From Mucilaginibacter sp. cycad4 (GTDB lineage: Bacteria; Bacteroidota; Bacteroidia; Sphingobacteriales; Sphingobacteriaceae): a DNA stretch of 64,000 nucleotides. A program made the position numbers and the translations under genes. This document shows positions 39,343-43,823 of the stretch, one piece after another (position 1 is the stretch's first letter; every line of letters begins with the position of its first letter). Below the pieces are notes generated by a model. The model made no database searches. It saw only the letters and a program-made list of their open reading frames with translations, and was not told where the DNA came from. The DNA lies in NCBI RefSeq assembly GCF_034263275.1, contig NZ_CP139559.1, positions 2,108,001 to 2,172,000 of the forward strand, written 5' to 3'.

Positions 39343-39377
39343 TTTGATGTTAAATGCTATTTAAAATTCTATTTTTG
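39343..39377 (+). promoter_or_regulatory. Bacteroidota promoter of the thrS operon
   Basis: TTTG at 39343-39346 and TATTTTTG at 39370-39377, an exact TAnnTTTG, are 23 bases apart. Transcription should start near 39384, giving a leader of about 70 bases. Confidence 0.65.
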
Positions 39378-39392
39378 TACCCACAAAATGAG

Positions 39393-39411
39393 GGTCACTT
39401 TGTAGGTGACC
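39393..39411 (+). promoter_or_regulatory. thrS leader hairpin resembling the tRNA-Thr(UGU) anticodon arm
   Basis: A perfect six-base-pair stem (GGTCAC with GTGACC) closes a seven-base loop, TTTGTAG. Read as an anticodon loop, position 33 is U, positions 34-36 are UGU, the anticodon for Thr ACA/ACG codons, and 37 is A. In E. coli the thrS mRNA operator also mimics the tRNA-Thr anticodon arm and is bound by threonyl-tRNA synthetase to block its own translation (established knowledge). That this hairpin does the same here is inference. It lies 41 bases before the start codon. Confidence 0.55.
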
Positions 39412-39452
39412 GTTTAAACGTAATTTTATAAAACTTTAAATCATAGTTGTAG

Positions 39453-41378
39453 ATGATTAACATTACACTTCCTGATGGATCCGTTCGTCAGTATGACAAA
39501 GGGATCACTTCTATGCAAATCGCGCAGTCGATTTCTGAAGGATTAGCCCGCAACGTATTAGCAGCCGAAGTTGACGGACAGGTTTGGGACGCAAGCCGCC
39601 CTATTGAGCAGGATGCCCACGTTAAATTATTGACCTGGAACGATGCTGACGGCAAATCAACTTTCTGGCATTCATCGGCCCACTTAATGGCCGAGGCCTT
39701 GGAAGCCCTTTATCCGGGTACTAAATTTGGTATCGGTCCGGCAATTGAAACCGGTTTTTATTACGATGTTGATTTTGGCGACAAGGTTTTATCTTCTGAC
39801 GAGTTTAAGCAGATAGAAGATAAAATGATTGAGCTTGCTAAAACCAAAGAGGAGTACATCCGTAAACCGGTAAGCAAGGCTGATGCTATTGAATACTTTA
39901 CCGAAAAAGGTGACGAGTATAAGCTTGACCTGATCAAGGATTTGCCCGATGGTGCTATTACTTTTTATTCACAAGGCAATTTTACCGACCTGTGCCGCGG
40001 GCCTCATATCCCTAACACAGGCTTTATAAAGGCGGTTAAGCTGATGAGCCTTGCCGGTGCATACTGGCGTGGCGATGAAACCCGCAAACAGTTAACCCGT
40101 ATATACGGCGTTACTTTCCCTAAGGCCAGCGAACTTACTGAGTACCTCCACATGATCGAAGAAGCTAAAAAGCGCGATCACCGTAAGTTGGGTAAAGAAT
40201 TGGAGTTATTTGCTTTTTCAGAAAAGGTAGGTATGGGCTTGCCATTGTGGTTACCTAAAGGAACTGCATTGCGCGAACGCCTGGTGAGCTTTTTACAAAA
40301 GGCACAGGTTAAAGCAGGATATGAGCAGGTAATTACACCGCATATCGGTCATAAAAACCTGTATGTAACATCCGGTCACTACGAGAAATACGGCGCCGAC
40401 TCGTTCCAGCCGATAAAAACACCGCAGGAAGGAGAGGAGTTTTTCCTGAAACCAATGAACTGCCCGCATCATTGTGAGATCTATAAAACAAAACCGCGTT
40501 CATATAAAGATCTGCCGGTACGTTTTGCTGAGTTTGGTACTGTGTACCGTTACGAGCAAAGCGGCGAGTTGCACGGTTTAACCCGCGTGCGTGGCTTTAC
40601 TCAGGATGATGCCCACCTATTTTGCCGTCCGGACCAGGTGAAGGATGAGTTTAAAAAAGTAATTGACCTTGTATTATATGTATTTAAAGCTTTAGGCTTT
40701 GAAAACTATACTGCACAGGTGTCATTACGTGATCCGGAAAATAAGGCTAAATACATCGGTACAGATGAAAACTGGGCTTTAGCCGAAAGCGCGATCATTG
40801 AAGCGGCTGCCGAAAAAGGATTAACTACCGTTGTTGAATTAGGTGAAGCCGCATTTTACGGGCCGAAGCTTGATTTTATGGTAAAAGATGCTCTTGGCCG
40901 TAAATGGCAGTTGGGTACCATACAGGTTGATTATAACCTGCCCGAGCGTTTTGAACTGGAGTACACTGGCAGCGACAACTTAAAGCATCGCCCGGTAATG
41001 ATCCACAGGGCGCCATTTGGTTCGATGGAGCGCTTTATAGCAGTATTAATTGAGCATTGCGCAGGTAATTTCCCGCTGTGGTTATCGCCCGAGCAGTTCA
41101 TTATACTACCCATATCAGAAAAATATGAAGAATATGCAAAAAAAGTTTCTGATATATTAAAAGATTCCGATATTTGCGGGCTAATCGACTTCAGGGACGA
41201 GAAAATAGGCAGAAAAATACGAGATGCTGAAGTCAAAAAAATCCCTTACATGCTGGTTGTGGGCGAAAAAGAAGCTGCCGAAGGGCTGGTTTCTGTACGT
41301 AAACACGGTACCGGTGATTTGGGAAGTATGAGCATTGAAGATTTTAAAGAACAGATAACTAAAGAAATAACAGTATAA
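39453..41378 (+). CDS. thrS: Threonyl-tRNA synthetase
   Basis: This 641-residue class II synthetase charges tRNA-Thr. The TGS domain ([16 protein letters not shown]) is at residues 1-62, and the editing domain at about 65-225 contains [13 protein letters not shown] and the [12 protein letters not shown] motif. The catalytic core has zinc ligands Cys in [13 protein letters not shown], then the class II motif 2 [13 protein letters not shown] and motif 3 [15 protein letters not shown]. The C-terminal anticodon-binding domain covers the last 100 residues. The infC gene begins one base after its stop, in the classical order thrS-infC-rpmI-rplT. Confidence 0.98.
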
Positions 41379-41379
41379 C

Positions 41380-41946
41380 TTGGCATTAAACAAACCTTTC
41401 AATAGAGGACCAAGGCTTCCTTTTAAGAAAAAAGAAGCCGAACATAACATAAACCAATTCATTAGGGCTCAGGAAGTTCGCCTTGTAGGTGATAACGTAG
41501 AGCAGGGAGTTTACTCATTAAGAGATGCCCTTGCAATTGCACAGGAGCAGGAACTGGATCTGGTTGAAATATCTCCAAACGCCGTACCACCGGTTTGTAA
41601 AGTAACTGACTATAACAAGTTTATTTACGAGCAGAAGAAAAAGCTTAAAGAGATAAAAAGCAATGCCAAGCAAACGGTTATTAAAGAAATCCGTTTCGGA
41701 CCGAACACTGACGACCATGACTTTGAATTTAAATTAAAGCATGCCATTAAGTTTTTGGAAGCCGGCGAAAAGGTAAGGGCTTACGTACACTTTAAAGGCC
41801 GCGCCATTGTTTACAAAGAACAAGGCGAGATTTTATTACTTCGTTTTGCCCAGGCATTAGAAGAAGTAGGTAAAGTAGAACAATTACCTAAGCTTGAAGG
41901 AAAAAGGATGTTTTTAACCCTTGCTCCAAAGGCCGCGAAAAAATAA
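41380..41946 (+). CDS. infC: Translation initiation factor IF-3
   Basis: This 188-residue factor binds the 30S subunit and checks start-codon pairing. The N-terminal domain holds [22 protein letters not shown] and [30 protein letters not shown], followed by the [19 protein letters not shown] linker and C-terminal domain. The start is TTG at 41380, one base after the thrS stop; no in-frame ATG lies at a suitable place. A non-AUG start is conserved in many infC genes (AUU in E. coli), allowing IF-3 to limit its own synthesis. Confidence 0.97.
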
Positions 41947-42320: not shown

Positions 42321-42665
42321 ATGCCACGTTCAGTTAACGCAGTAGCGTCGAGAAGACGCAGGAAAAGGATCATGAACCTCGCCAAAGGTTATTGGGGTTC
42401 ACGTAGCAAGGTATACACCATTGCAAAAAACACAGTTGAAAAAGGTTTACAGTACGCTTACCGCGACCGTAAAACCAAAAAGAGAGAGTTCAGGGCTTTA
42501 TGGATCCAACGTATTAACGCTGGTGCCCGTCAGCATGGAATTTCTTACTCTCAGTTAATGGGTAAATTAGCCGCTAAAGAAATTGGCTTAAACCGTAAGG
42601 TATTAGCTGACTTAGCAATGAACAACCCTGATGCTTTCAAAGCAGTTGTTGATGCAGTAAAATAA
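42321..42665 (+). CDS. rplT: 50S ribosomal protein L20
   Basis: This 114-residue protein binds 23S rRNA early in 50S assembly and, in several bacteria, represses its own operon. It has [54 protein letters not shown] and [11 protein letters not shown], all family hallmarks. It is the last gene of the operon, followed by a strong terminator. Confidence 0.98.
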
Positions 42666-42685
42666 TATCGCATTGTAAATGCATG

Positions 42686-42712
42686 AAAGGCCGCAAATTG
42701 CGGCCTTTTTTT
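42686..42712 (+). terminator. Terminator of the thrS-infC-rpmI-rplT operon
   Basis: AAAGGCCGCA and TGCGGCCTTT form a strong GC-rich stem with a short loop, followed by seven T. Confidence 0.95.
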
Positions 42713-42749
42713 GTTTTAATTTAATTGTTTGAGTGGCTATTTTTACGGT

Positions 42750-43823
42750 ATGACATCAAACAAGGAGGGGCAGCCTGCCTTATCTAATTTATTGCGCAGC
42801 AATTATTATCACTCCTTAAACGGATTTCGGGGCATTTCAATTATCCTTGTTATATTTTATCACCTTCAATTATCTGATAGTTATTTTTATACCACCGTAT
42901 TCAACGGAGGGTTAGGGGTAAACATTTTCTTTGTCATCAGTGGCTTTTTAATCACAAGCTTATGTCTAAAAGAAAAAGAAGCGACCGGTGACCTGTCGTT
43001 AAAAAGGTTTTATATAAGGCGCCTTTTGAGGATTTTTCCCTTAGCCTATTTGTATATCGGGGTGGTGTTTTTATTAAACCATTTCTACAGATTAAACATT
43101 TCGTGGGTTCAATTTGCAGGTTCAGCATTATATCTAATGAATTTCAGCTATTTCCGGAGCCATGATTTCACTTATTACTTCAGTCACTATTGGTCGTTAT
43201 CGGTTGAGGAACAATTTTATCTCCTTTTTCCTTTTATTTTAAAGATCAACAGAACTGCATTTTATTATATCATTATCAGCATTGTATTCGCATTGCCGCT
43301 ATTGTGTACGGTGCAACAGTTTGTTCCGGTTTTGAACCGTGGCATTATTTACGGTTTTACTCATTATTTTATAAAATTTCAGTCAATTGGTGTTGGCTGT
43401 TTTTTTGCGTTGGTTGCCTCTAAAGGAACTTTGAATGTAAATTGGCTCAAACAAACAAAGGTAGCTGGCAATATTTTGGCTATAATATTGATGTTTGGAT
43501 TGCATTTTGACGAATTTTACTCCTTAAGATCACTGTACGTAAACCTGGTGATTTCGCTAACTACGGGCTATTTAATTTTAAGCAATATCGTACCGGCAAA
43601 TGATTGGATTTTTAAAGTATTAAACAATAAATTACTGTCATTTATTGGTATTCTATCGTATGGCATATACATATGGCAACAGTTATTTACCGGCCGGGAT
43701 AGTAAAATGCCATTAAGCATATTTCCTTACAATCTATTGGGTTTGATTGCTGTCCCTTTATTATCATATTACCTTTACGAACGGCGTTTTCTAAAACTTA
43801 AATCAAAATTTAAAAGGAAATGA
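42750..43823 (+). CDS. Acyltransferase 3 family membrane protein
   Basis: This 357-residue protein starts at the ATG at 42750; an in-frame TTG seven codons earlier lies close to the rplT terminator. Acyltransferase-3 features are NGFRGISIILVIFYHLQL near the N-terminus with the active-site His, NGGLGVNIFFVISGFLIT, and RFYIRRLLRIFPLAYL (RxxR motif), then SHYWSLSVEEQFYLLFPF. About ten membrane helices are predicted. Such proteins O-acetylate sugars of LPS, exopolysaccharide or glycolipids; the substrate here is unknown. It stands alone. Confidence 0.9.
   Translation: MTSNKEGQPALSNLLRSNYYHSLNGFRGISIILVIFYHLQLSDSYFYTTVFNGGLGVNIFFVISGFLITSLCLKEKEATGDLSLKRFYIRRLLRIFPLAYLYIGVVFLLNHFYRLNISWVQFAGSALYLMNFSYFRSHDFTYYFSHYWSLSVEEQFYLLFPFILKINRTAFYYIIISIVFALPLLCTVQQFVPVLNRGIIYGFTHYFIKFQSIGVGCFFALVASKGTLNVNWLKQTKVAGNILAIILMFGLHFDEFYSLRSLYVNLVISLTTGYLILSNIVPANDWIFKVLNNKLLSFIGILSYGIYIWQQLFTGRDSKMPLSIFPYNLLGLIAVPLLSYYLYERRFLKLKSKFKRK

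Follow-up and report, generated by a model that had tools for sequence, protein, structure and literature searches.

Two putative mimics of the tRNA-Thr anticodon arm in the thrS mRNA of Mucilaginibacter sp. cycad4 and related bacteria

The analysed window is a stretch of 64,000 nucleotides from the genome of Mucilaginibacter sp. cycad4, and all features described here lie on its plus strand. The gene at 39453–41378 encodes threonyl-tRNA synthetase (ThrRS, 641 aa; the product and, in our proposal, also the repressor), identified by a TIGR00418 match (E 1.8e-218, 727 bits against a cut-off of 384); its eight best named relatives are all from Mucilaginibacter (91–93% identity). It is followed by infC, encoding IF-3 (41380–41946; TIGR00168), rpmI, encoding L35 (42039–42239; TIGR00001), and rplT, encoding L20 (42321–42665; TIGR01032), and the order thrS-infC-rpmI-rplT is the same in E. 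coli. In the list of open reading frames, infC is annotated with a TTG start directly 3' of thrS; non-AUG starts are frequent in IF-3 genes. Sub-threshold matches to unrelated Rfam families are clustered over the end of rplT and just 3' of it (42535–42760), possibly owing to a single strong hairpin or terminator.

The region before thrS begins with a putative promoter element, TATTTTTG (39370–39377), which we take to be a -7 box of the Bacteroidota type. It is followed by a first hairpin, here called arm 1 (GGUCAC-UUUGUAG-GUGACC, 39393–39411), an A/U-rich single-stranded linker of 27 nt (39412–39438) and a second hairpin, arm 2 (AAUCAU-AGUUGUAG-AUGAUU, 39439–39458), whose 3' strand is formed by the thrS AUG and codon 2. 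Among the 83 leaders of the family in which an arm 1 was picked, a TAnnTTT[G/A/C] box ends 7–16 nt 5' of this arm in 59, lies farther away in 11 and is absent within 45 nt in 13. Judged from this putative box, thrS transcription would start a few bases 5' of arm 1; the start site has not been mapped. A comparison of the leader with Rfam 15 gave no family match at E values up to 5.

A sequence-only reading of this DNA had singled out the hairpin GGTCAC-TTTGTAG-GTGACC as a mimic of the tRNA-Thr anticodon arm located between promoter and start codon. The hairpin is present as described, with six Watson–Crick pairs and a seven-base loop (39399–39405), between the -7-like box and the thrS ATG at 39453. 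The proposed tRNA fit also holds, as the loop reads U32 U33 U34 G35 U36 A37 G38, with UGU at 39401–39403, and positions 33–37 match the UGU isoacceptor. A point against it is that arm 1, folded alone, closes two more pairs within this loop (U-G and U-A), giving a UGU triloop (-9.0 vs -7.2 kcal/mol). The tRNA-Thr arms of the same genome, as obtained with ARAGORN from 30 of its 54 tRNA places, are ACTGA-CTTGTAA-TCAGT (UGU) and CTTCC-TTGGTAA-GGAAG (GGU). Our comparison of leader sequences supports the mimicry at thrS, but the reading was incomplete, since a second mimic containing the start codon had been missed. This arm 2, AATCAT-AGTTGTAG-ATGATT, carries the same loop (U33 U34 G35 U36 A37 G38 on the 3' side) and spans -14 to +6, with the AUG within its 3' strand.

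Leaders were compared from the complete order draw, which comprises 91 genomes of one family in 10 genera, and from 129 further genomes. Together with 20 outgroups, the latter cover 149 of the 276 thrS-bearing genomes outside the family. An unbiased scan, in which no loop sequence was demanded, recorded every hairpin that had five or more Watson–Crick pairs and closed 7 or 8 loop bases; numbering each loop from its 3' side, we then tallied the triplet at positions 35-36-37. Between -120 and -15 of the family leaders, the triplet GUA was found in 78/91 genomes (next triplet 5/91), compared with 2/91 in the control region (-250 to -125) and a mean of 1.09 (maximum 6) in 100 dinucleotide-shuffled leader sets. 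At the start-codon region, GUA was present in 85/91 genomes and GUU in 4/91. The 129 non-family leaders showed 17 cases of GUA between -100 and 0, with 11 for the next triplet and one GUA farther upstream; after shuffling, the mean was 0.92 and the maximum 3. Family leaders are related, so their counts do not represent independent trials; the recurrence of the loop across families is the stronger point.

When G35 and U36 were required, an arm 1 with at least five Watson–Crick pairs was picked in 83/91 family leaders. These two bases consequently reach 100% by construction, and the counts include two wrong picks, namely G339, where the real arm (GATCAC-TCCCGTAA-GTGATT) is located downstream of the pick, and G348, a genome without evident arm 1. 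Position 34 was occupied by U (54), A (17), C (10) or G (2), position 33 by U (71), A (6), C (5) or G (1), and position 37 by A (78), U (4) or G (1). No arm 1 was picked in eight leaders, but five of these (G347, G336, G309, G345 and G361) show the loop by eye on a mismatched or shorter stem. No evident arm 1 was found in 4/91 family genomes (G348, G349, G355 and G322), of which G355 and G322 also lack arm 2. In four loci with a CAATGU-type arm 1 (L203, L201, L205 and L210), arm 1 appears by eye to be seated on an additional outer stem, resulting in a longer two-part hairpin. The 17 loops with A34 correspond to the anticodon AGU, which is not on either tRNA-Thr gene found in the own genome; this fits recognition of positions 35 and 36 by a protein and not the copying of one given tRNA. 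PMC9976931 lists G34, G35 and U36 as the bacterial threonine identity elements in the anticodon, and the free position 34 of arm 1 departs from the G34 of that list. The conservation of G35-U36 with a free base 34 is as would be expected if ThrRS reads G35 and U36, for which no binding data exist.

The sequence-only reading had proposed aligning the leaders of relatives as a check, and the check was passed: NGU, together with A37, is retained in the loop, and the stem shows covariation. For the covariation count, 69 distinct hairpins were used (51 from the family and 18 from other families). In these arm-1-type stems, 137 cells were changed on both sides, compared with 34.4 in shuffles; the further pair types numbered 21 (shuffles 16.8) and the score amounted to 0.943 (shuffles 0.258), none of the three values being reached by any of 500 shuffles. 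The hairpins had been chosen for pairing, and the 96.6% of paired positions is therefore partly a matter of construction, but the diversity of pair types is not. The number of pairs with a change on both sides (6/6) was reached by 410/500 shuffles and is uninformative. The observed variety includes GGTCAC/GTGACC, GTTCGC/GCGAAC, ACACCC/GGGTGT, CAATGT/ACATTG, CCTGC/GCAGG and CCACC/GGTGG. In the MAFFT alignment A1, the first arms of Sphingobacterium were misaligned.

We further searched with a covariance model (R1) trained on first arms and on the single arms of other families, without any second arm. Its E-values are rough, and the first whole-genome look scored only 150 of several hundred candidates. 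Within the 64-kb window, arm 2 scored 24.2 bits (E 0.0013) and arm 1 21.7 bits (E 0.0062), followed by a third match at E 4; arm 1 was among the training sequences, arm 2 was not. In the complete genome of 7.1 Mb, arm 2 was the top match among the 150 of 757 candidates scored, arm 1 was not among the matches listed, and the only other match listed lies inside an open reading frame that is SusC-like by eye. Across 31 genomes of the genus (own genome included), 30 gave a match at E up to 2 among the candidates scored, and the best match started 14 nt 5' of the thrS ATG in 22 of them (arm 2) and 59–65 nt 5' of it in the other 8 (arm 1). When both strands of 80 named thrS loci (383,682 nt) were searched, 56/57 matches proved to be in sense orientation and to lie within the leader or across the start. 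Arm 2 was detected in 24/24 Sphingobacteriaceae loci (L003–L025 and L041, a family assignment that we presume from the genus names) and arm 1 in 21/24, while a single arm was present in 11/56 other named loci, including Echinicola, Belliella, one Algoriphagus, Cyclobacterium and Spirosoma. Part of the named loci are the same sequences as those used for training, so that the search is an independent test for arm 2 and not for arm 1. A second model (R2), applied to 149 genomes of the class, gave matches at E up to 1 in nine, five of them family members with the match at thrS and four with weak matches elsewhere.

A regulon extending beyond thrS was considered and rejected. The R1 matches in the genus genomes numbered 66, of which 43 are at thrS and 23 elsewhere; among the 21 of the latter that were inspected, no common downstream gene was found, only three having a downstream open reading frame. 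Eighteen of 20 non-thrS matches overlap an open reading frame in sense or antisense orientation; L393 and L405 do not, the latter being located 120 nt before an open reading frame. The remaining inspected match is the one in the SusC-like frame of the own genome. The matches L394 and L395 appear to represent the same hairpin, CATTACAGTAGTATGTAATG, antisense to apparently one gene (an open reading frame of 741–743 aa) in two members of the genus, and this is probably a chance hairpin carried by coding sequence.

The distance between the arms is conserved as well. The linker measures 22–36 nt in 60/81 two-arm leaders (mean 27.7) and 37–82 nt in the other 21/81. In 20/21 of the long linkers (exception G365), a hairpin ends within 5 nt of arm 2, and the exterior length, i.e. 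with each helix of the minimum free energy fold counted as 2, is 22–31 nt in 20/21 (18 in G316), with a mean of 26.4 and a standard deviation of 2.4. Mononucleotide shuffles of the long linkers brought on average 5.6/21 into this range (maximum 12 in 200 rounds), with a standard deviation of 9.4 (minimum 5.9); the mis-picks G339 and G348 were left out, and several of the 21 leaders are close relatives. Compared with shuffles, the extra linker hairpin is less stable in G080 and G138 and equally stable in G365. In G299, G327, G335, G356 and G319, an extra hairpin just 5' of arm 2 restores a single-stranded length of about 26 nt. Such a kept end-to-end distance is what a dimer gripping both arms would ask for.

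Based on these observations, we propose, with good though not full confidence, that the thrS leader is a translational operator bound by its own product ThrRS, similar in its working to that of E. coli and consisting of two arms with the AUG in the second. What the sequences show is the pair of arms, the identity of their loops, the covarying stem of arm 1, the specificity for thrS and the conserved spacing; binding and repression are inferred. The first arm is predicted to sit close to the 5' end of the transcript, the second contains the AUG, and about 27 unpaired bases separate them. With ThrRS in excess over its tRNA, one dimer might hold both arms through its two anticodon-binding domains. 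Arm 2, weak alone like a real tRNA arm, would form only part of the time; once pinned by ThrRS with the AUG in its stem, it would keep the 30S subunit off, and plentiful free tRNA-Thr would compete ThrRS away and allow translation of thrS. The ThrRS of this locus aligns to the E. coli enzyme over the anticodon-binding domain, where R583, E600 and R609 are kept and N575 is replaced by D; these residues are anticodon contacts of the E. coli protein. PMC11088916 describes ThrRS as a dimer with anticodon-binding domains. In the absence of binding or expression data, the binding of ThrRS, the seating of one dimer on two arms, the repression of initiation and the competition by tRNA all remain inferences.

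One could argue that ThrRS binds only arm 1 and its single-arm counterparts and that the sequence conserved around the AUG serves translation initiation, its hairpin shape being incidental; we consider this explanation unlikely, but the most serious of the alternatives. Arm 2 with at least five Watson–Crick pairs was found in 89/91 family genomes, with a loop of 7 or 8 bases, U (83) or C (6) at position 34 and A (85) or U (4) at position 37, and both arms with at least five Watson–Crick pairs were scored by script in 83/91, including the false arm 1 of G348 and the wrong arm-1 pick of G339. The stem of arm 2 shows no covariation, as five of its six pairs are invariant (44 sequences out of 58 in alignment A3), which would favour an initiation element, but this is also accounted for by the coding function of its 3' strand. 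The pairing of arm 2 thus rests on conservation and on a codon-2 bias. Codon 2 of the family thrS genes is AUU in 86, AUC in five and AUA in none (n = 91), whereas 86 other genomes with a Met-Ile start use AUU (39), AUA (35) and AUC (12). The avoidance of AUA is what the outermost pair of arm 2 would demand, although codon bias may contribute.

The folding energies are in part in favour of the initiation element. Arm 2 alone amounts to -2.1 kcal/mol, compared with -2.4 and -3.7 for the two tRNA-Thr arms, and reaches a probability of only 0.21 in a fold of the leader plus 60 nt of coding sequence, in which the AUG bases are paired otherwise (0.68, 0.83 and 0.91); an AUG that stays open until ThrRS binds is consequently not predicted by that fold. 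A strand swap between arm 1 and arm 2 is conceivable where both stems read AUCAC/AUCAU, but it is not general, as other stems of the family cannot form it. The single arm of other families, described below, also fits a binding site confined to arm 1. Against it stands that a model of first arms retrieves arm 2 as the best match of the genome among the candidates scored, that UNGU persists in arm-2 loops differing in length (7 or 8) and in base 34, and that the arm-to-arm distance is kept. Furthermore, Bacteroidia start regions favour A at -3, -6, -12 and -13, and Shine–Dalgarno pairing is not general there, according to PMC9976891. The family thrS starts show U at -3 (98%), -6 (99%) and -12 (90%), and A at -13 (97%); the block thus has U in place of the preferred A at -3 and -6, although it has A at -13 as preferred. 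In the arm-2 mimic, positions -3 and -6 correspond to U36 and U33.

Less probable still is that the hairpins serve mRNA stability or standby, or that the UNGUA loop is the site of another protein such as IF-3 or L20 of the same operon. Arm 1 is indeed near the predicted 5' end, but a hairpin that merely stabilises the mRNA would not require a constant loop. The gene infC is present in 150/159 thrS loci, and linkage of the arms to thrS cannot be separated from linkage to infC; nine loci lack infC, of which two are incomplete (L054 and L059) and seven have no arms. The kept bases, on the other hand, are anticodon positions 35-36 of the gene's own tRNA and A37, with position 34 free, and the lack of any Rfam match at the above threshold speaks against another factor. 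On the same ground, a leader of L20 or of another ribosomal protein was rejected as a candidate.

We regard a tRNA-sensing leader of the T-box type or a transcription attenuator as very improbable. Aminoacyl-tRNA synthetase genes are frequent T-box targets, but the loop is the anticodon itself and not a threonine codon, so that tRNA-Thr cannot pair with it codon-wise, and the Rfam comparison of the leader, with E values up to 5 admitted, gave neither a T-box nor a Thr_leader match. U-rich stretches occur 3' of arm 1, but only after some bases, and the U-run is not adjacent to the stem. Finally, a chance hairpin in one genome, for which the sequence-only reading had left room while not favouring coincidence, and with which the overall fold of the leader, no more stable than shuffles (z -0.66; 44/200 equal or better), would be compatible, is refuted by the loop scan of the 91 genomes, the covariation, the model searches in named loci and genus genomes and the spacing.

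Having weighed these alternatives, we return to the ThrRS operator and its distribution. The two-arm form was found in the order searched. In some other Bacteroidia families, the same loop is carried upstream of thrS on unrelated stems, as one arm with the stem starting 25–39 nt before the AUG (families f38, f39, f41, f50, f56, f64, f67, f70 and f8); in several of these, only some members carry the arm. Four members of the G+C-rich family f41 (L245, L248, L252 and L262) have single-arm hairpins with CGU as the "anticodon", located some 30 nt 5' of thrS; the loop rule is kept there, but the stem, rich in G+C, is very different. Most other Bacteroidia leaders were negative, with only 17/129 positive in the unbiased scan; the single arm was scored in 28/129 at a loose threshold (four Watson–Crick pairs), some of them doubtful. 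Family f4 provided one doubtful case in nine, and most other families none. No arms were found in 20 outgroup leaders, one each from 20 families outside the class.

Among the matches listed in a search limited to open-licence full text, no title or beginning of an abstract described a thrS operator of Bacteroidota, and a term search of the main text of PMC2864571, which reports 104 candidate RNAs, found neither "thrS" nor "threonyl". If true, our proposal would add a defined translational control element to Bacteroidota. The start-codon arm would represent a compact design, with the AUG placed within a look-alike of the protein's own tRNA, and the natural variants at position 34 would state the recognition rule, i.e. 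N34 free and G35-U36-A37 kept. In addition, the Bacteroidota case offers a direct test of the need for two arms and a kept spacing.

Several known systems invite comparison. T-box leaders let tRNA supply control genes related to amino acids, as stated in PMC4695836; in contrast to the thrS leader, whose loop carries the anticodon and which has no Rfam T-box match, the T-box RNA reads the tRNA directly. A further case is that of the yeast HisRS and ThrRS, for which the available parts of PMC6542539 and PMC9956033 report anticodon-arm mimics in mRNAs (the own mRNA; RPC10). In both cases, a synthetase binds a look-alike of the anticodon stem-loop in an mRNA, although here the binding is inferred; the yeast systems are eukaryotic, and those parts of the two sources do not describe occlusion of the start codon.

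Autoregulation of ThrRS by tRNA mimicry is a textbook case from E. coli. According to PMC11088916 and PMC9976931, domains II and IV of the E. coli operator are hairpins resembling the anticodon arm, and the ribosome has a domain of its own. A Met anticodon placed in the loops is reported to let MetRS take over in E. coli. As a positive control, the same scan was run on the E. coli thrS leader and yielded ten hairpins, including UUCGUGU (-42 to -21) and AUUUGUUG (-106 to -84), which are 42 nt apart and which we ourselves assign to domains 2 and 4; R1, run on a 4-kb E. coli locus, gave as best match the upstream hairpin of the thrS leader, albeit weakly (E 0.33). The E. coli operator and the one proposed here are both located in the 5' leader of their own gene, have two hairpins with tRNA-Thr anticodon-like loops (G35, U36) and follow the order arm, single-stranded linker, arm and start codon. 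They differ in that the AUG is inside arm 2 here, whereas the E. coli ribosome-binding domain, with Shine–Dalgarno sequence and AUG, is separate from the arms, and in that the linker measures about 27 nt instead of 42 nt; moreover, the host phylum lacks general Shine–Dalgarno pairing and some relatives are single-armed. The arm-less outgroup leaders make us lean towards an origin separate from that of the E. coli operator, with descent undecided. If true, finding the two-arm logic in a distant phylum without general Shine–Dalgarno use would point either to repeated emergence or to an age well beyond what has been assumed. On balance, and with distinctly less assurance than for the operator as such, we favour a two-arm operator in Bacteroidota that is independent of that of the Enterobacteria, in which the AUG is placed in arm 2 and a dimer would clamp a spacer of about 27 nt and close the AUG directly; the one-arm leaders of several further Bacteroidia families, including relatives of the Cyclobacteriaceae and Chitinophaga types, would represent its simpler state.
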